The notes under the pieces were generated by a model, which saw only the letters and a program-made list of their open reading frames with translations, was not told the origin of the DNA and searched no databases. 64,000 nt of DNA from Oceanobacillus sojae. Lineage in GTDB: Bacteria; Bacillota; Bacilli; Bacillales; Amphibacillaceae. This document shows, one piece after another, positions 7,107 through 54,901 of the stretch. Each line of letters begins with the position of its first letter. The stretch's first letter is position 1. The position numbers and the translations under genes are program-made. The DNA is taken from NCBI RefSeq assembly GCF_900162665.1, contig NZ_LT727813.1:526214-590213 (forward strand), given 5' to 3'.

Positions 7107-7877
7107 TTATTTCTCCCCCATCGACTTTTCAATAACATCCAGTACTTGCTGCAGCTTCTGAACCGGAATTTGTCCCGGCGCTGAAGCTCTTTCTCCAGCT
7201 CCAAAGGTTAGTACCGATCCAAAGACCTGTCCAGATAACCGGGTGATCACTCCAAGAGGACCCATCGCCATTGTAATCATTGGCTTCTCTGTATGTTTTT
7301 TCATTTCATTAGTTGCTGTGAGCAGCTCGAGGACATCCTCTGTGTTATTCGGCACCACGGCAATTTTTAATACATCGCCGCCAAGCTCATCTGCCCACTT
7401 TAATCGATTGATAATTTCTGATTGTGCTGGTGTTTTTTGAAAATCATGATTGGAAATGATTACGTATGTATGCTGCTGATGCGCGACAGAAATCAGCTTC
7501 TTAACCGTATCTTCTCCCTGATACAATTCCACATCCACAAGATCCGCAAGACCTGTCTGGATGACAAATTGGTTCAATGATACATAATCTTCTTTGGAGA
7601 GTTCCTTCTCTCCTCCCTCTTGATGACTGCGAAAAGTAAAAATCAGCGGAATCCCTTTTAAAACGTTCACCAAATCTTTTAGAACCTCCAGCACTGCTGC
7701 ATGATTTTCCACTTCTTCAAATATATCCGCTCGCCATTCAATAACATCTATTGCCTCTTTTTGATAACGTTTCGCCTCTTCAATAATTTCTGCTTTTTTT
7801 GATGAAGTTATAGGAATGCAGATACTTGGCTTCCCTTCTCCCAGTGTTATATTTTTAATTGTTAATGCTTCTGTCAT
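7107..7877 (-). CDS. aroD: Type I 3-dehydroquinate dehydratase
   Basis: Class I dehydroquinase of the shikimate pathway (3-dehydroquinate to 3-dehydroshikimate plus water), a 256-aa TIM barrel. The catalytic His is H144 (ISNHDF) and the Schiff-base Lys is K171 (VLKIAV), matching H143/K170 of the E. coli enzyme. Also visible are the EWRAD substrate loop and the C-terminal ASAPGQIPV lid. The ATG at 7877 was chosen over an in-frame TTG six bases upstream; GGAG lies 11 bases before it. It is the second gene after an MFS carrier (54-base gap), and this context suggests use of imported quinate or shikimate rather than only aromatic biosynthesis. Confidence 0.93.
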   Translation of the reverse strand: MTEALTIKNITLGEGKPSICIPITSSKKAEIIEEAKRYQKEAIDVIEWRADIFEEVENHAAVLEVLKDLVNVLKGIPLIFTFRSHQEGGEKELSKEDYVSLNQFVIQTGLADLVDVELYQGEDTVKKLISVAHQQHTYVIISNHDFQKTPAQSEIINRLKWADELGGDVLKIAVVPNNTEDVLELLTATNEMKKHTEKPMITMAMGPLGVITRLSGQVFGSVLTFGAGERASAPGQIPVQKLQQVLDVIEKSMGEK

Positions 7878-7931
7878 AATCAATCCATCTCCATTCTTTA
7901 CTGAAACTTATCCTTTTGAAAAACTTGTTTA

Positions 7932-9155
7932 TCACGTACGATACCTGCCTCTTTCCCTATGAGAAAAATGAAAAACAACCCATGTTACTGCAACCAGCAG
8001 CATAACAATACTGGATAGATAAAAAACGGCAGAGATTCCATATAAATCTATAATAATAAATGATAGCAAGGGACCGATTGCCGCTCCTAAATCTACAGCC
8101 ACCGTATGCAGGGTCATCATCTTAACGGGGTTACTTCTCGCTGCCGCATCGCCCGCCAAGGTGTCTGTTATCGTTAAAAGTCCGGTTGAAACCATCTGGA
8201 AAAACATAATAGTTATTAATAACAGCACAAAGGATTCCACACGGCCTATAATCAGAAAAGCAATGCTGCCTAATGTTAACGGGACAAGAATCCAGTTATA
8301 TTTATACTTGCTCTTATCTACAAACCTGCCTATCATTGGAGCAAATACAGGATCCCACGCCCAGCGGATTGCCTGTATTATTCCGGCCAGTGTTGCAGCG
8401 CCAATGAAAATACCAAAAAAGGACCAATCAGCATGATAAGTTTGTTCAATCAGCGGACTAAGTGTAGAAGCAAAAATGCCCATCGTGATAAAGCCCATGG
8501 TTCCTCCAGTCAGAATGACCAGGACAATATATGGATTGAGGATGGTTTGTTTCCCCTTGGCAGGTAAATCATTGCTTGCAGTTGTTTTTCCATCATCTCT
8601 ATTATTTTTTGGTACAAGCCTGACAATAAAAGGAAAGACTGCCACAGCAGCCAATACAAACAGGGTGGTCACAAACGGTATCGATAGCTGATCCACTAAA
8701 AAGCCTCCTGCCAGCATACCGACTAATCCGCCTAATCCCCATAGTCCATTGTACAATCCCATATAATGACCTCTCGTTTTTTCCGTAGAGAATGTGACAA
8801 CTGTGAGCATTCCTCCCAGTTTAACAAATGACCAGGCAACTCCCCACAGTATTCTAGCAAGCAGCAACAGCCAAAAGCCCTGAAGCAGACCATAAGATAC
8901 GGTGCTGAAAGCGGCACATGCTACAGAAATCAATACTCCTGTCCGAATATTGAATTTGCTGTAAAACAGTCCTACTAACGGGGTAATCGATAAGCGGACA
9001 AAACGATTGATTGATAGCAGCACGCCAATCTGCCAGATAGCTGTTAATCCGAAATCCTGCCAATATAAAGGGAGTACAATAAAAAGCATCGCATCTCCCA
9101 TCACAGTTACTGCTGTAATCAGCGCAATTCCGACAACCTTTCTTTTGTCACTCAT
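7932..9155 (-). CDS. MFS transporter, upstream partner of aroD
   Basis: A 407-aa major facilitator with 12 predicted membrane segments in two six-helix bundles separated by a charged loop (about residues 187-207, KNNRDDGKTTASNDLPAKGK). The motif-A region is degenerate (FVRLSITPLVGLFYSKF). It is co-directional with and immediately upstream of aroD, so a shikimate, quinate or dehydroquinate importer is a reasonable guess from context only; a drug-efflux role cannot be excluded. It is the first gene of the unit and is divergent from the ABC operon that starts at 9490. Confidence 0.8.
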   Translation of the reverse strand: MSDKRKVVGIALITAVTVMGDAMLFIVLPLYWQDFGLTAIWQIGVLLSINRFVRLSITPLVGLFYSKFNIRTGVLISVACAAFSTVSYGLLQGFWLLLLARILWGVAWSFVKLGGMLTVVTFSTEKTRGHYMGLYNGLWGLGGLVGMLAGGFLVDQLSIPFVTTLFVLAAVAVFPFIVRLVPKNNRDDGKTTASNDLPAKGKQTILNPYIVLVILTGGTMGFITMGIFASTLSPLIEQTYHADWSFFGIFIGAATLAGIIQAIRWAWDPVFAPMIGRFVDKSKYKYNWILVPLTLGSIAFLIIGRVESFVLLLITIMFFQMVSTGLLTITDTLAGDAAARSNPVKMMTLHTVAVDLGAAIGPLLSFIIIDLYGISAVFYLSSIVMLLVAVTWVVFHFSHRERGRYRT

Positions 9156-19094: not shown

Positions 19095-19345
19095 TTGCGT
19101 ATAGCTCCGCTCCGACCAACCACTACGCTTTCCGACGTACAGGACGTACTAGTGCAGACGTTGCAACAACTCTTTTCGATGGGGTGAGTAATCGCAACCC
19201 CAGGACGTTGCGATCTTAGTCTGCCATGGGGACGGCTTCAGCTAACTTGAAAAGAAAACCGCTTTTCAAGTGGATCTTCAGCTCGCCCCACCGGAAACAT
19301 TTGTACGTCGAAAGCAAAACGGTCCGCCGTAGCGGTAGCCTTACA
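19095..19345. repeat. GC-richer palindromic intergenic repeat element
   Basis: A gene-free block of about 250 bases, richer in GC than its surroundings and built from nested inverted repeats: outer GCTTTCCGACGTAC (19127-19140) against GTACGTCGAAAGC (19303-19315), and inner CTTGAAAAG (19246-19254) against CTTTTCAAG (19262-19270). It also contains GGGGTGAGTAATCGCA (19181-19196), a 16-mer that recurs twice in one-base-variant form at 32243 and 32271. It looks like one member of the multi-copy palindromic intergenic elements common in Bacillaceae; I see no protein coding in it. Its boundaries are approximate. Confidence 0.6.
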
Positions 19346-50443: not shown

Positions 50444-51613
50444 ATGAAATTATCCCAACGTGTAGAACAACTTCCATCCCAGTTCTTTGCATCACTTGCC
50501 GGTAAAGTAGCTGCTGCAATAGCAGAAGGAAGAGATATTATTAACCTGGGGCAAGGAAATCCGGATCAGCCGACACCCCCGCACATTATTCGTGCCCTTC
50601 AGGAAAGTGCTGAAAATCCAGTTACACATAAATATTCTCCTTTCCGCGGCACAGATGAATTAAAGCAGGCTGCTGCACAGTTTTACAAAAGAGAGTATGG
50701 TGTCGATTTAGATCCTGCTACAGAAATTGCTATTTTATTTGGCAGTAAAATCGGCTTGATAGAACTGCCCTTAGCTCTAATGGACAAGGGAGAATTAATG
50801 CTCTTACCCGATCCTGGATACCCGGATTATCTGTCCAGTGTTCCATTAGCAGATGTTACTTATGACACGTTTCCATTACTAGAAGAAAATGATTTTTTAC
50901 CGGATTATACAGCATTAACAGATGAACAGAAGAAACTTGCCAAGCTATTATATCTCAACTATCCGAATAACCCGACCGGAGCAGTTGCAACAAAGGAATT
51001 TTTTGAAGATACTGTTGCATTAGCTGAAGAAAATGATATCGGCATTGTTCATGATTTTGCATATGGCGCAATCGGCTTTGACGGACACCAGCCGGTAAGC
51101 TTCCTGCAAATAGAAGGAGCGAAGGATATCGGTGTTGAGCTATATACGCTCTCCAAAACCTATAATATGGCAGGCTGGCGCGTCGGATTTGCTGCTGGAA
51201 ATAAAGATATGATTGAAGCGATCAATATTCTGCAGGATCATTTATTTGTCAGCCTTTTTCTTGCTATTCAAAAAGCTGCTGCCGAAGCATTATCGGGTGA
51301 CCAAAGCTGCGTCACCTCTCTTGTAACACTTTATGAACAGCGCAGAAATGTTTTAATGGAGGAATGCAGACGTATCGGCTGGGAGGTAACTGCACCAAAA
51401 GGCTCCTTCTTTGCCTGGCTCCCGGTCCCGGCAGCATTTACAAGTGAAGAATTTGCGGATTATTTATTAAAGGAAGCAGATGTAGCTGTTGCTGCCGGAA
51501 ATGGTTTCGGAAGAACCGGAGAAGGCTATATACGTGTCGGCTTGCTGGTGGAAGACGAGCGCATACGTGAAGCAATCCGACGTATTGAAAAATTGAACTT
51601 ATTTCAAAAATAA
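50444..51613 (+). CDS. mtnE: MtnE-like PLP aminotransferase
   Basis: A 389-aa class I aminotransferase close to B. subtilis MtnE (YkrV) by remembered sequence: LPSQFFASLAGKV, INLGQGNPDQPTPPHI, LYLNYPNNPTGAVAT, VHDFAYGAIGFDG and the PLP-Lys motif TLSKTYNMAGWRVGF. MtnE transaminates 4-methylthio-2-oxobutanoate (KMTB) to methionine in the salvage pathway. RBS AAGAGG. The leader has a small hairpin (GGCAGGAGG with CCTCTGCC) but no S-box. The rest of the mtn operon is not here; instead the S-box metNI-oxidase unit follows on the same strand. Another amino-acid aminotransferase function is the alternative. Confidence 0.8.
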   Translation: MKLSQRVEQLPSQFFASLAGKVAAAIAEGRDIINLGQGNPDQPTPPHIIRALQESAENPVTHKYSPFRGTDELKQAAAQFYKREYGVDLDPATEIAILFGSKIGLIELPLALMDKGELMLLPDPGYPDYLSSVPLADVTYDTFPLLEENDFLPDYTALTDEQKKLAKLLYLNYPNNPTGAVATKEFFEDTVALAEENDIGIVHDFAYGAIGFDGHQPVSFLQIEGAKDIGVELYTLSKTYNMAGWRVGFAAGNKDMIEAINILQDHLFVSLFLAIQKAAAEALSGDQSCVTSLVTLYEQRRNVLMEECRRIGWEVTAPKGSFFAWLPVPAAFTSEEFADYLLKEADVAVAAGNGFGRTGEGYIRVGLLVEDERIREAIRRIEKLNLFQK

Positions 51614-51670
51614 GCATTGACGAAACCTGTAAAATAAGATATTTTTAAATAATACAATTCAATAAGTGCG

Positions 51671-51816
51671 TGTTCAAAAAGGCCGATAAATAGGACCAAG
51701 AAGTTCAAGGCGACTAGCTTTTTACGAACGGAGCGTATGCATTATAATACGTGAGTATCGGAAAAAGCTCGTCAACGTAGAAATTCGCAGTGTCATCTTT
51801 ATTGGACTTTTTGAAC
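51671..51816. repeat. Long nested palindromic intergenic element
   Basis: The ends are a perfect inverted repeat, TGTTCAAAAAG (51671-51681) and CTTTTTGAACA (51806-51816). Pairing continues imperfectly inward, with a second strong pair, GACTAGCTTTTTACG against CGGAAAAAGCTCGTC, and a central ATTATAAT. The 146-base unit can fold as one long hairpin. It looks like a non-coding MITE or REP-like repeat lying between mtnE and the S-box leader. It contains no ORF of note. Confidence 0.7.
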
Positions 51817-51836
51817 ATCCTCTATAAGTGTTATAT

Positions 51837-51985
51837 CTCTTATCCAGAGTAGCTGAGGGACTGGCCCGTTGAAGCTCGGCAACCTTAAAAAGGTGCTAAT
51901 TCCAGCAAGACATCCGTCTTGAAAGATGAGAGCAGAAAATAAATCTATGTTTTCGAGCCTCTCTTTCGCCAGAGAGGCTCTTTTT
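51837..51985 (+). ncRNA. SAM-I riboswitch (S-box) with terminator
   Basis: Aptamer at about 51837-51933: CTTATCCAGAGTAGCTGAGG, GGACTGGCCC, GAAGCTCGGCAACC, AAGGTGCTAATTCCAGCAA and the closing GATGAGAG match the S-box consensus blocks in order. A terminator hairpin, GAGCCTCTCTTTCGCCAGAGAGGCTC plus five T in two pieces (51955-51985), follows as expression platform. High SAM should stop transcription into metNI and the oxidase gene. Confidence 0.95.
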
Positions 51986-52053
51986 ATGAATTGTACAAGT
52001 ATTGATTAAAAGCGCATCCGCCGCTTAAAAATAGAAAGGCAGGAAGAACATCA

Positions 52054-53073
52054 ATGATCAAGTTAGAAAATGTCACGAAAGTTTTCCCGTCCAAAAAAGG
52101 AAAAGATGTTACTGCATTAGACAATGTGACGATTTCTGTCAATAAAGGAGAAATCCATGGCGTTATCGGTTATAGCGGTGCAGGAAAAAGTACATTAATT
52201 CGTTGTGTCAATTTACTGGAAACACCATCCAAGGGGAAGGTATGGATTGACGGAATTGATTTAACAAAATTATCGAAGGAAAAGCTCCGGCAGACAAGAC
52301 AGAAAGTCGGCATGATTTTTCAGCATTTTAATTTATTAAAAACAGCTACCGTCTATGACAATATTGCTATCCCTTTAAAATTACTCGGTGTGCCGAAATC
52401 AAAAATTGCTGAACGGGTTGTTAAATACCTGGAAATTGTTGATTTAGTTGAGAAAAAAGATTCTTACCCTGCTCAGCTTTCCGGCGGTCAAAAGCAGCGT
52501 GTAGCTATTGCAAGAGCACTTTCTCAGGAACCACAGGTGCTCCTGAGTGATGAAGCAACCAGCGCATTAGATCCCGAAACAACTAATTCCATTCTTGAAT
52601 TATTATTAAAAATTAATGCAGAGCTCGGGATTACGATTCTATTAATCACACATGAAATGAATGTTATTCAAAAAATATGTGATTATGTATATGTCATCGA
52701 AAATGGAAATCTTATTGAGCAAGGCTCTACGATTGAATTATTTACAAAGCCGCAGCAGCCGACCACAAAAAAATTCCTCAATACGATTTCACAGCGGAAG
52801 TTATCTGACCGTCTGGTTGATGAATTGAAATTGGAAGGAAGGGTCGTTCGTCTGACCTTTTTAGGGGAAAATACAGGGCAACCGCTGCTATCTAAGGTTA
52901 CACAGCAATTTTATGTAGAACCGAATATCCTCACAGCAAATATAATCGAATTAAAAAACGGCATCGTCGGTAATCTCGTTGTTCATTTAATCGGCAATGA
53001 TCAGCAGGTAGAACAATCACTCTCTTTCTTGCAGGAACAAGGCGTAGAAATAGAAGAATTGGGGGTAAACTAA
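52054..53073 (+). CDS. metN: Methionine ABC transporter ATPase
   Basis: A 339-aa MetN. Walker A GYSGAGKST (residues 38-46), Q-loop IFQHFNLL, signature LSGGQKQR, Walker B VLLSDEATSALDP and H-loop THEMNV. The C-terminal NIL (ACT-like) regulatory domain, about residues 265-339, provides methionine feedback in this family. It is the first gene behind the S-box; the permease starts one base after its stop. It imports methionine or related compounds with MetI and a MetQ-type lipoprotein, which is not encoded here. Confidence 0.95.
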   Translation: MIKLENVTKVFPSKKGKDVTALDNVTISVNKGEIHGVIGYSGAGKSTLIRCVNLLETPSKGKVWIDGIDLTKLSKEKLRQTRQKVGMIFQHFNLLKTATVYDNIAIPLKLLGVPKSKIAERVVKYLEIVDLVEKKDSYPAQLSGGQKQRVAIARALSQEPQVLLSDEATSALDPETTNSILELLLKINAELGITILLITHEMNVIQKICDYVYVIENGNLIEQGSTIELFTKPQQPTTKKFLNTISQRKLSDRLVDELKLEGRVVRLTFLGENTGQPLLSKVTQQFYVEPNILTANIIELKNGIVGNLVVHLIGNDQQVEQSLSFLQEQGVEIEELGVN

Positions 53074-53074
53074 T

Positions 53075-53737
53075 ATGCAATCCTTTATTGATCAATGGCT
53101 GCCAATATTTTACGAAGCAATAAAAGATACTTTTCTCATGGTTGCTATTTCTCTTGCTTTCTCAGTACTTATAGGTATCATTTTAGCCATCATTTTAATC
53201 TTGACGCGTCCTGGACAACCTTTGCAAAATAAATTTGTTTATCAGTTTTTTAATTTACTAATAAACGTCATTCGTTCCATTCCGTTTATTATTCTTTTAT
53301 TTTTTATGCTTCCATTCACCAAATTTATAGTAGGAACTTCTATTGGTGTCGAAGGGGCTATTGTACCGCTCGTAGTTAATGCTGCCCCGTATATTGCCAG
53401 ACTGATTGAATCTTCCCTGCTAGAGGTAAACCAGGGTGTTATTGAAGCATACCGGGCAATGGGGATAAAGACACATCAAATTATTTGGAATGTTATGCTT
53501 CGTGAAGCCAGACCGGCAATTGTCCTGGCTTTAACCATTGCAACGATCAGCCTTATCGGAGCAACAGCTATGGCAGGACTGGTTGGTGCCGGGGGCTTAG
53601 GTGACCTTGCATACAGATTTGGACATCTGCGCTATGAAACAGATGTGATGTACGTCACTGTTATACTTCTAATTATTATCGTCCAGGGTATTCAATCTAT
53701 CGGAAACCGGCTTGCGGCGCGAATGAAAAAAGATTAA
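53075..53737 (+). CDS. metI: Methionine ABC transporter permease
   Basis: A 220-aa MetI with five hydrophobic helices. The EAA loop that contacts MetN is in EAYRAMGIKTHQIIWNVMLREARPAI in overlapping parts (about residues 125-150). It follows metN with a one-base gap and has GGGGG as RBS. In most Firmicutes metQ follows; here the next gene, 15 bases downstream, is a flavin-dependent oxidase. Confidence 0.95.
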   Translation: MQSFIDQWLPIFYEAIKDTFLMVAISLAFSVLIGIILAIILILTRPGQPLQNKFVYQFFNLLINVIRSIPFIILLFFMLPFTKFIVGTSIGVEGAIVPLVVNAAPYIARLIESSLLEVNQGVIEAYRAMGIKTHQIIWNVMLREARPAIVLALTIATISLIGATAMAGLVGAGGLGDLAYRFGHLRYETDVMYVTVILLIIIVQGIQSIGNRLAARMKKD

Positions 53738-53752
53738 AACGGGGGTAAAAAT

Positions 53753-54901
53753 ATGCCAGTATCATCACAAAAAGGCTCTTTTTTAGAGCATATTACCATA
53801 CAGGATTCCTTTCCCATCGGGCCTGAACAGCTTGAAGCTGCGGCAAAGCATACCTTACCTGAAGAAGTGTTTGGCCACATCCGCTCCGGTGCCGGCGGCG
53901 AGGAAACATTAAGAAAAAATAGAACAGCTTTTGAGAAGTATTCCATCATTCCAAGATGTTTAAACAATGTATCGAAGGTGGATACCTCCATTCGTATTTT
54001 AGGAAAAGAATATGCTTTTCCATTTATGGTGGCTCCCATCGGCCATTTGAAAATGGTCCACGAGGAGCCCGACTTTGCCATTGCAAACGTTGCTGCCTCT
54101 ATGAATATTCCATATATCCAAAGCACTGTTACTGCCAGGTCTATCGAAGAGGTCTCAGAGGCTGTGCCTGAAGGACCTAAATGGTTTCAATTATATTGGT
54201 CAAGTAATGCTGCTATTTCCTACAGCATGGCAAAACGCGCAGAAAAAGCAGGATATGAAGCGATTGTTGTAACTGTGGATACAGTAATGCTTGGATGGCG
54301 GGAGGATGATATGCGCTATCAATATTCCCCTTTGAAAAAAGGATATGGAAAAGCCAATTATGTTCAGGATCCAGCTTTTCAGAAGGGGTTGAAGGAAGGC
54401 CAGGATGAAATTGATTCTATTATCGAGAATCTGCATCATCCGCACCTTCATTGGGACAACATAGCAGAATTACGTCAGCATACAAATCTGCCAATCTTTT
54501 TAAAAGGGATCCTTCATCCAGAAGATGCAATACAGGCTGCAGAAGCCGGGATCGACGGGATTGTTGTTTCCAATCATGGAGGCAGACAAATGGACGGGAT
54601 TATTCCAAGTCTGGAAGCATTGCCGGCTATCCGTAAAGCTGTCGGCCCGGATTTCCCTCTGCTCTTTGACAGCGGTATCCGCCGGGGAGCAGATGTAATC
54701 AAAGCTATTGCACTGGGTGCCGACGCAATTTTACTTGGACGTCCTTATGCATACGCACTGGCTCTGCAGGGGGAAGCAGGTGTCCAAAAGCTATTTGCCA
54801 ACCTCGCACAGGAGGTTTCTGTATCGATGGCTTTATCCGGAGCAAAGACAGTTGAAGAAGTAAAGCAGTTTACTTTAAAAGCCTCTGATTATTCATTGTA
54901 A
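53753..54901 (+). CDS. FMN-dependent 2-hydroxyacid oxidase/dehydrogenase (lactate 2-monooxygenase-like)
   Basis: A 382-aa TIM-barrel flavoprotein of the glycolate oxidase/lactate monooxygenase family. Catalytic His and Arg are in SNHGGRQMDG (about residue 274), and FMN-binding segments are FDSGIRRGADVIKA and ADAILLGRPYAYAL; the N-terminal VAPIGHLKM also matches. It oxidises an L-2-hydroxyacid to the 2-keto acid. It sits in the S-box unit after metI, without an intervening terminator. That suggests a sulfur-containing substrate such as 2-hydroxy-4-methylthiobutanoate rather than lactate; this is inference. Confidence 0.85.
   Translation: MPVSSQKGSFLEHITIQDSFPIGPEQLEAAAKHTLPEEVFGHIRSGAGGEETLRKNRTAFEKYSIIPRCLNNVSKVDTSIRILGKEYAFPFMVAPIGHLKMVHEEPDFAIANVAASMNIPYIQSTVTARSIEEVSEAVPEGPKWFQLYWSSNAAISYSMAKRAEKAGYEAIVVTVDTVMLGWREDDMRYQYSPLKKGYGKANYVQDPAFQKGLKEGQDEIDSIIENLHHPHLHWDNIAELRQHTNLPIFLKGILHPEDAIQAAEAGIDGIVVSNHGGRQMDGIIPSLEALPAIRKAVGPDFPLLFDSGIRRGADVIKAIALGADAILLGRPYAYALALQGEAGVQKLFANLAQEVSVSMALSGAKTVEEVKQFTLKASDYSL

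Follow-up and report, generated by a model that had tools for sequence, protein, structure and literature searches.

An S-box metNI operon of Oceanobacillus sojae that ends in an FMN-dependent 2-hydroxyacid oxidase gene: a putative part of a regulon for methionine recovery from hydroxymethionine

Analysis of a 64,000-nt window from the 4.8-Mb genome of Oceanobacillus sojae (NZ_LT727813.1; G000:C18:526214-590213 in our designation) revealed an operon in which an S-adenosylmethionine (SAM) riboswitch of the S-box class precedes the importer genes metN and metI and a gene for a flavin mononucleotide (FMN)-dependent 2-hydroxyacid oxidase. We propose that metN-metI-oxidase is one part of a regulon that probably, under repression by SAM, regains methionine from 2-hydroxy-4-methylthiobutanoate (HMTB, hydroxymethionine) via 4-methylthio-2-oxobutanoate (KMTB). 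A route from HMTB through KMTB to methionine had already been suggested in a preliminary description of the locus. It now finds strong comparative support in conservation across eight families, in the partner genes and in the lack of acireductone dioxygenase (ARD), whereas the idea that SAM also controls the aminotransferase gene mtnE of the window is not supported.

Results

The locus comprises the following elements:

50444-51613, + strand: mtnE, encoding a KMTB aminotransferase of 389 aa (NCBIfam PRK08068, 667 bits, cut-off 494; Pfam Aminotran_1_2)
51656-51825, no strand: copy of a dispersed, imperfectly palindromic repeat of ~165 bp in the interval between mtnE and the S-box (genome self-match)
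51837-51932, + strand: aptamer of the SAM-I (S-box) riboswitch (RF00162, 87.5 bits, gathering threshold 44.4, E 2.2e-19)
51918-51967, + strand: putative antiterminator that would join the 3' strand of P1 to the 5' terminator arm (-15.7 kcal/mol, z -3.2 for the alternative fold)
51955-51980, + strand: putative intrinsic terminator of the S-box expression platform, a 10-pair stem followed by TTTTT (51950-51990, -18.4 kcal/mol, z -4.1)
52054-53073, + strand: metN, encoding a MetNI-type importer ATPase with a NIL domain at its C-terminus (Pfam ABC_tran and NIL; best NCBIfam TIGR02314)
53075-53737, + strand: metI, permease (Pfam BPD_transp_1; PRK10782)
53753-54901, + strand: FMN-dependent 2-hydroxyacid oxidase of 382 aa, the last gene of the S-box operon (Pfam FMN_dh, 413 bits)

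Open reading frames (ORFs), Rfam and Pfam agree on these parts and bear out the arrangement described previously, including the gap of exactly 15 nt between metI and the oxidase gene in the ORF map of the window; metN and metI are separated by 1 nt. The aptamer scores well above the gathering threshold of its Rfam family, and terminator and antiterminator are mutually exclusive as judged by folding only (-18.4 versus -15.7 kcal/mol). A promoter or terminator splitting metI from the oxidase gene was sought, and the consensus scan returned none that convinces. Between metN and the oxidase start, no terminator-like site was detected on the + strand of the window, a single weak 7-pair match falling within the oxidase gene, and one weak promoter-like match (9/12) lies on the + strand inside metI (53201-53230). 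Both scans yield hits at roughly the level of shuffled sequence (21 versus 15.2 for promoters, 6 versus 5.0 for terminators).

The mtnE gene is encoded on the same strand and ends 223 nt before the aptamer, an interval filled mostly by the dispersed repeat. This element gives 58 match rows in G000, with fragments and reverse self-matches counted, and is not present at the corresponding mtnE/S-box site of G019. Since mtnE is located upstream of the S-box, it lies outside the S-box transcript, and the earlier statement that the entire unit is under SAM control is not supported for mtnE in the window strain.

To assess conservation, the 159 genomes of the family were searched for oxidase homologs (E <= 1e-40), which gave 66 places. 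Of these, 65 were examined, a place with 34% identity in G177 being left out, and together with L037 and L039 from other families they constitute a set of 67 loci. For a view beyond the family, 40 of 93 places were picked by hand rather than at random, which left 39 loci after exclusion of L245, where no ORF could be read. When linkage is defined as metI lying directly upstream of the oxidase gene or one gene away, 33 of the 67 loci and 17 of the 39 readable, hand-picked loci are linked. Thus, the linkage noticed in the window holds in related genomes and spans eight families, i.e. that of the window and seven further families of the order. At the 33 linked loci of the family set the oxidase gene follows the preceding gene at a median distance of 14 nt (range 1 to 417). 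With 50 linked loci at hand, linkage by chance can be rejected.

All linked oxidase genes have an S-box ahead of them on the same strand (33/33 and 17/17, that is 50/50) according to a single covariance model, which was built from 18 S-boxes, 15 of them from the 50 linked loci themselves; Rfam also shows the S-box in 36 of the 50. The covariance model was employed because an earlier S-box core pattern had turned out to be a poor test that missed 14 of the 33 linked loci. Its search space comprised all 67 loci together with 40 from other families and 12 with ybdH. Among the 34 unlinked loci, 19 were also scanned with Rfam. Within the stretches surrounding unlinked oxidase genes, an S-box was found at 2 of 34 loci of the family set and at 1 of 22 other-family loci, and none of them reads into the oxidase gene: those at L173 and L181 are on the opposite strand, before neighbour genes, and that at L209 precedes ybdH-metQ.

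In a midpoint-rooted tree, in which the root serves for drawing, all linked oxidases fall on one side of a branch with a Shimodaira-Hasegawa-like approximate likelihood ratio (SH-aLRT) support of 99. This side also holds 14 unlinked rows of the family set and three distant ones, and the other side holds the remaining 20 unlinked loci. Two genomes, G014 and G023, possess one oxidase from each clade apiece. In a larger tree the linked rows require seven changes, three of which are forced by starred branches; these may reflect loss, regain or repeated recruitment of the linkage. A few loci deserve mention for their own sake. At L181 (9667-9786) an S-box-metNIQ operon is positioned divergently near an oxidase gene of the other clade. 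At L145 (5609-6892) the unlinked oxidase gene of genus g61 is divergent beside an aminotransferase-like gene, named by reading. Finally, a 2-oxopent-4-enoate hydratase-like gene of the fumarylacetoacetate hydrolase (FAH) type follows the oxidase gene at L023 (8165-8935), L024 (8210-8986) and L026 (8266-9045; all in oxidase orientation).

The linked oxidase genes keep characteristic company. When partner genes were counted at an identity of at least 34% within ~7 kb on either side of the oxidase gene in the 67-locus set, mtnE was found near 24 of 33 linked versus 0 of 34 unlinked oxidase genes, a ybdH-like gene near 15 of 33 versus 0 of 34, and mtnU near 10 of 33 versus 1 of 34. As to the aminotransferase, which had been noted as an MtnE-like protein encoded directly upstream on the same strand, the PRK08068 match and orthology to ARD neighbours identify the gene as a true mtnE. 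In 7 of 7 relatives from the order that have a strong ARD match, the best match to the window MtnE (60-63%) is encoded 2.8-6.4 kb from the ARD gene on the same strand, wherefore we consider it an MtnE of the methionine salvage pathway type. The best NCBIfam match of the dehydrogenase is PRK10586 (E. coli YbdH) with 309.7 bits, short of the equivalog cut-off of 429, and by its sequence the protein is therefore YbdH-like only. The amidase encoded near mtnE matches PRK10438 (E. coli YafV) best, at 145 bits and below the cut-off of 249, and is labelled MtnU here.

Another 20 ybdH loci, a manual choice among 58 places, have mtnE as neighbour in 11 and metQ in 7 cases, and 15 of them carry an S-box (8 of 11 by Rfam; 7 of 9 by the covariance model, which found none in the three Rfam misses). 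The partners are assembled most completely at L211 (G185), where one S-box (1166-1272) is followed on the same strand by mtnE, ybdH, metQ, metN, metI and the oxidase gene, neighbouring genes overlapping or lying no more than 111 nt apart. This locus additionally contains a second aminotransferase gene (7563-8729; 39% to MtnE) immediately after the oxidase gene. At the genome level, YbdH is present in 40 of 47 genomes with the oxidase clade as compared to 11 of 112 without it, at a threshold of E 1e-70 that we chose; it keeps 51 genomes out of the 57 that pass at 1e-50. As genomes are not independent, the count was repeated by genus, giving 11 of 15 genera with the clade versus 3 of 31 without it (p 2.6e-5). 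The paralogous oxidase clade is accompanied by YbdH in just 2 of 18 cases.

A source of KMTB must exist for MtnE. With B. subtilis as positive control, no full-length ARD (MtnD) was detected in the 159 family genomes and none in G000; weak partial matches occur in 17 of the 159, the best of which reaches 27.5 bits, half a bit above the Pfam cut-off. MtnA was searched in G000 only, where the sole IF-2B match (124 bits) resides in a nucleoside/transport gene context. The pair of ARD and MtnA that we took to mark classical salvage was thus not recovered, the search being confined to these two mtn genes. Because full-length ARD is missing, MtnE needs its keto acid from another source. Supply of MtnE by classical salvage was rejected on this ground and, for G000, also because no convincing MtnA turned up.

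The importer proteins fall closest by far to the methionine families: MetN scores 389.5 bits with TIGR02314 and has the NIL domain, and MetI scores 207.7 bits with PRK10782, but both values are below the curated cut-offs (499.7 and 212, respectively). No gene for a MetQ lipoprotein is present at the window locus, as observed before. This absence does not extend to the genome, in which a search for orphan metQ uncovered two metQ genes outside the window locus, each under an S-box; loss of metQ from the genome can thus be dismissed. One of them, metQ2, comes after a YbdH-like gene in the S-box operon at L053. Among the linked loci of the family set, 25 of 33 have metQ, and the eight without it all belong to the genus of the window. 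At L052 (4927-8141; G000:C17), an S-box is followed by metQ and genes for an enoyl-CoA hydratase and a family III CoA-transferase, with no metNI. Since relatives have one whole operon of the order S-box-metQ-metN-metI-hydratase-oxidase-CoA-transferase (L028-L031, L033, L141), the window operon and L052 are, to judge from gene order, apparently two halves of a divided operon. The two CoA genes also flank the oxidase gene at L213, L217 and L246. A CoA-transferase ortholog is found in G025 (95%), and G019, G018, G014 and G008 have none that is close (best 33-37%). A role of the CoA-transferase as racemase was considered and abandoned, as the active-site His of alpha-methylacyl-CoA racemase seems missing by eye.

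Further S-box operons of G000 have other contents. At L055 (3782-6753) there are homocysteine methyltransferase-like, cyclase-like and MetE-like genes, and at L058 (5016-7840) genes for a short-chain dehydrogenase/reductase (SDR), an NhaC-type transporter and luxS, all named from reading the sequences.

The FMN_dh match together with the catalytic residues places the window protein among the FMN-dependent alpha-hydroxyacid oxidases/dehydrogenases: Y148, R183, K251, H275 and R278 are invariant in a 17-row alignment. Lactate oxidase and lactate 2-monooxygenase are among the nearest solved relatives. The models for lactate oxidase (TIGR02708, 249.4 bits versus a cut-off of 645.5) and for LldD (NF033901, 242.8 versus 550) score far below threshold, which, along with the conserved context, speaks against a plain lactate oxidase. 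Nonsynonymous and synonymous divergence (dN, dS) amounts to 0.019 and 0.30 relative to G019, 0.062 and 1.23 relative to G018, and 0.083 and 0.92 relative to G008; the oxidase is under purifying selection.

Discussion

The recovery of methionine from HMTB is favoured because two unrelated enzymes that convert 2-hydroxy into 2-keto acids share a transporter, a KMTB aminotransferase and a riboswitch class. The following scheme may be envisaged. At low SAM the riboswitch, whose class is assigned from sequence, would admit transcription into metNI and the oxidase gene, and MetNI together with the MetQ proteins from two other S-box operons would import methionine or its analogues, possibly HMTB among them. 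HMTB may be of external origin, or may stem from KMTB lost through promiscuous reduction in the cell. The FMN oxidase would convert one enantiomer, expected to be L, to KMTB and H2O2, and the YbdH-like dehydrogenase, by its enzyme class, could act on the other enantiomer or on the same substrate with NAD(P). Methionine would then arise from KMTB by transamination through MtnE, and an MtnU of the omega-amidase type, encoded in many relatives, would remove the alpha-ketoglutaramate that is left over with glutamine as donor. A more far-reaching version holds that this is a dedicated S-box pathway for HMTB from the environment with two unrelated enzymes for two enantiomers, its own MetQNI, MtnE and MtnU, and an optional CoA branch, which has replaced classical salvage family-wide as the source of KMTB; this version we offer tentatively, as somewhat less than an even proposition.

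Several observations weigh against the HMTB reading. First, no sequence feature proves HMTB as substrate, which is deduced from context, and the oxidase family also takes lactate, glycolate, mandelate and others. In the lineage of the window, 6 of 6 closest genomes encode His42 where relatives have a Tyr that binds the substrate carboxylate (the equivalent of Tyr-24 in glycolate oxidase numbering), and 10 of the 14 oxidase-clade members that lack the linkage have Phe at this position; specificity may therefore have shifted. Second, these same 14 family oxidases are not beside metNI, a larger and faster tree separates eight linked rows (L156 and seven from f2 and f11) by a short branch, and a scan for distant homologs in named genomes found 0 of 44 readable loci linked to metNI among the matches listed. 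These comprised 80 loci, 36 of which dropped out at ORF picking and may still have the gene, and near relatives may fall outside these matches. Third, mtnE lies outside the S-box transcript at the window locus, and 5 of the 20 other ybdH loci showed no S-box by Rfam or the covariance model. Fourth, MetQ1 retains the general MetQ sequence and aligns throughout with solved methionine-binding proteins, so that methionine itself may be the ligand. Finally, the HMTB pathway would have no need of the hydratase and the CoA-transferase that accompany the oxidase at 7 of the 33 linked loci of the family.

Some of these points would equally be accounted for by an oxidase of the methionine regulon that acts on another 2-hydroxy acid, such as 2-hydroxybutyrate or 2-hydroxy-4-mercapto or methylsulfinyl acids, or on HMTB that arises solely through damage within the cell. 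MetNI would then import methionine, as the MetQ1 alignment would suggest, and the enzymes would serve metabolite repair rather than nutrient capture. The loci at which oxidase or ybdH genes occur apart from metNI (L145-L152, L154, L155, and L188 and L189 with mtnE-ybdH-mtnU) are in line with this idea. However, the oxidase gene resides inside metQNI operons in eight families, and so, separately, does ybdH in several genomes, which suggests the transported compound as substrate or precursor, and we deem the repair explanation unlikely, albeit worth keeping in mind.

That the gene for a mere lactate or glycolate oxidase came to lie behind metNI by accident is quite improbable. The best solved relatives of the enzyme, which are lactate or other hydroxyacid oxidases, the related unlinked oxidases in family genomes and the unlinked distant homologs would be compatible with such a role, but linkage in eight families with an S-box ahead in every linked case, the low scores with the lactate oxidase models, and the separation of 20 of the 34 unlinked oxidases as a clade of their own, with G014 and G023 holding one of each, argue otherwise.

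Most improbable is a CoA branch in which the oxidase would decarboxylate HMTB to 3-methylthiopropionate, CoA-transferase and hydratase would release methanethiol, and a sulfhydrylase would form methionine: lactate 2-monooxygenase is a close solved relative with a common NYVxDPxFQK loop, the CoA genes occur at the oxidase in the loci named above and behind an S-box metQ elsewhere in G000, and G000 has an S-box MetY-like gene (L057, named by reading only), but the CoA genes are missing from 26 of 33 linked family loci, mtnE being present in 24, a close ortholog of the CoA-transferase is missing from four of the six closest genomes, and no DmdC-like dehydrogenase is among the identified operon genes, no search having been aimed at it.

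Returning to the recovery of methionine from HMTB, each enzyme class involved is already known, and the operon does not represent a new category. In Bacillales, S-box metNPQ/metNIQ operons place a SAM riboswitch before the methionine ATP-binding cassette (ABC) importer; the window operon differs by the added oxidase gene and by having its metQ in other S-box operons. With classical salvage (mtnKA-mtnWXBD-mtnE-mtnU) it would share the last steps, i.e. MtnE and the helper MtnU, whereas the family of the window has no full-length ARD and KMTB would derive from a 2-hydroxy acid. Hydroxymethionine finds wide use as a feed supplement and also occurs as an intermediate of dimethylsulfoniopropionate (DMSP) synthesis. 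The closest parallel is the SAM-controlled two-gene system of E. coli. According to PMC3228920, E. coli lineages have lost the salvage cluster and retained ybdH and mtnE (ybdL) together under MetJ, and E. coli YbdH is reported (PMC11481890) to be a hydroxycarboxylate dehydrogenase whose gene follows met genes. Under SAM-dependent repression, both systems appear to pair a hydroxycarboxylate dehydrogenase with a methionine/KMTB aminotransferase, whereas that of the window employs an S-box riboswitch and an FMN oxidase and has its genes joined to metQNI. A review (PMC3274233) mentions that hydroxymethionine, and likewise the keto analogue, supports growth of an E. coli methionine auxotroph. In animals, as described in PMC10136669, HMTB is oxidised by L-2-hydroxyacid oxidase and D-2-hydroxyacid dehydrogenase, one per enantiomer, both of which yield KMTB for subsequent transamination. 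The bacterial genes differ in that they form an operon together with transporter genes under a riboswitch, and the YbdH-like dehydrogenase is related to glycerol dehydrogenases.

Searches of the open-access literature turned up no S-box metNI-hydroxyacid oxidase operon, which subscription papers might nevertheless mention, and no named bacterial operon for HMTB use. The operon supplies concrete candidate genes for hydroxymethionine utilisation and points to a possible function of the ybdH-mtnE pair kept under MetJ in E. coli. It would also explain why mtnE and mtnU are retained in bacteria without the ARD step, and the SAM-regulated oxidase is a candidate for assay or conversion of the analogue.

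Additional feature of the window

A Bacillaceae-1 RNA (RF01690, 37.8 bits) is encoded on the - strand of the window at 19136-19235; this RNA also occurs at L032, L162 and L168.

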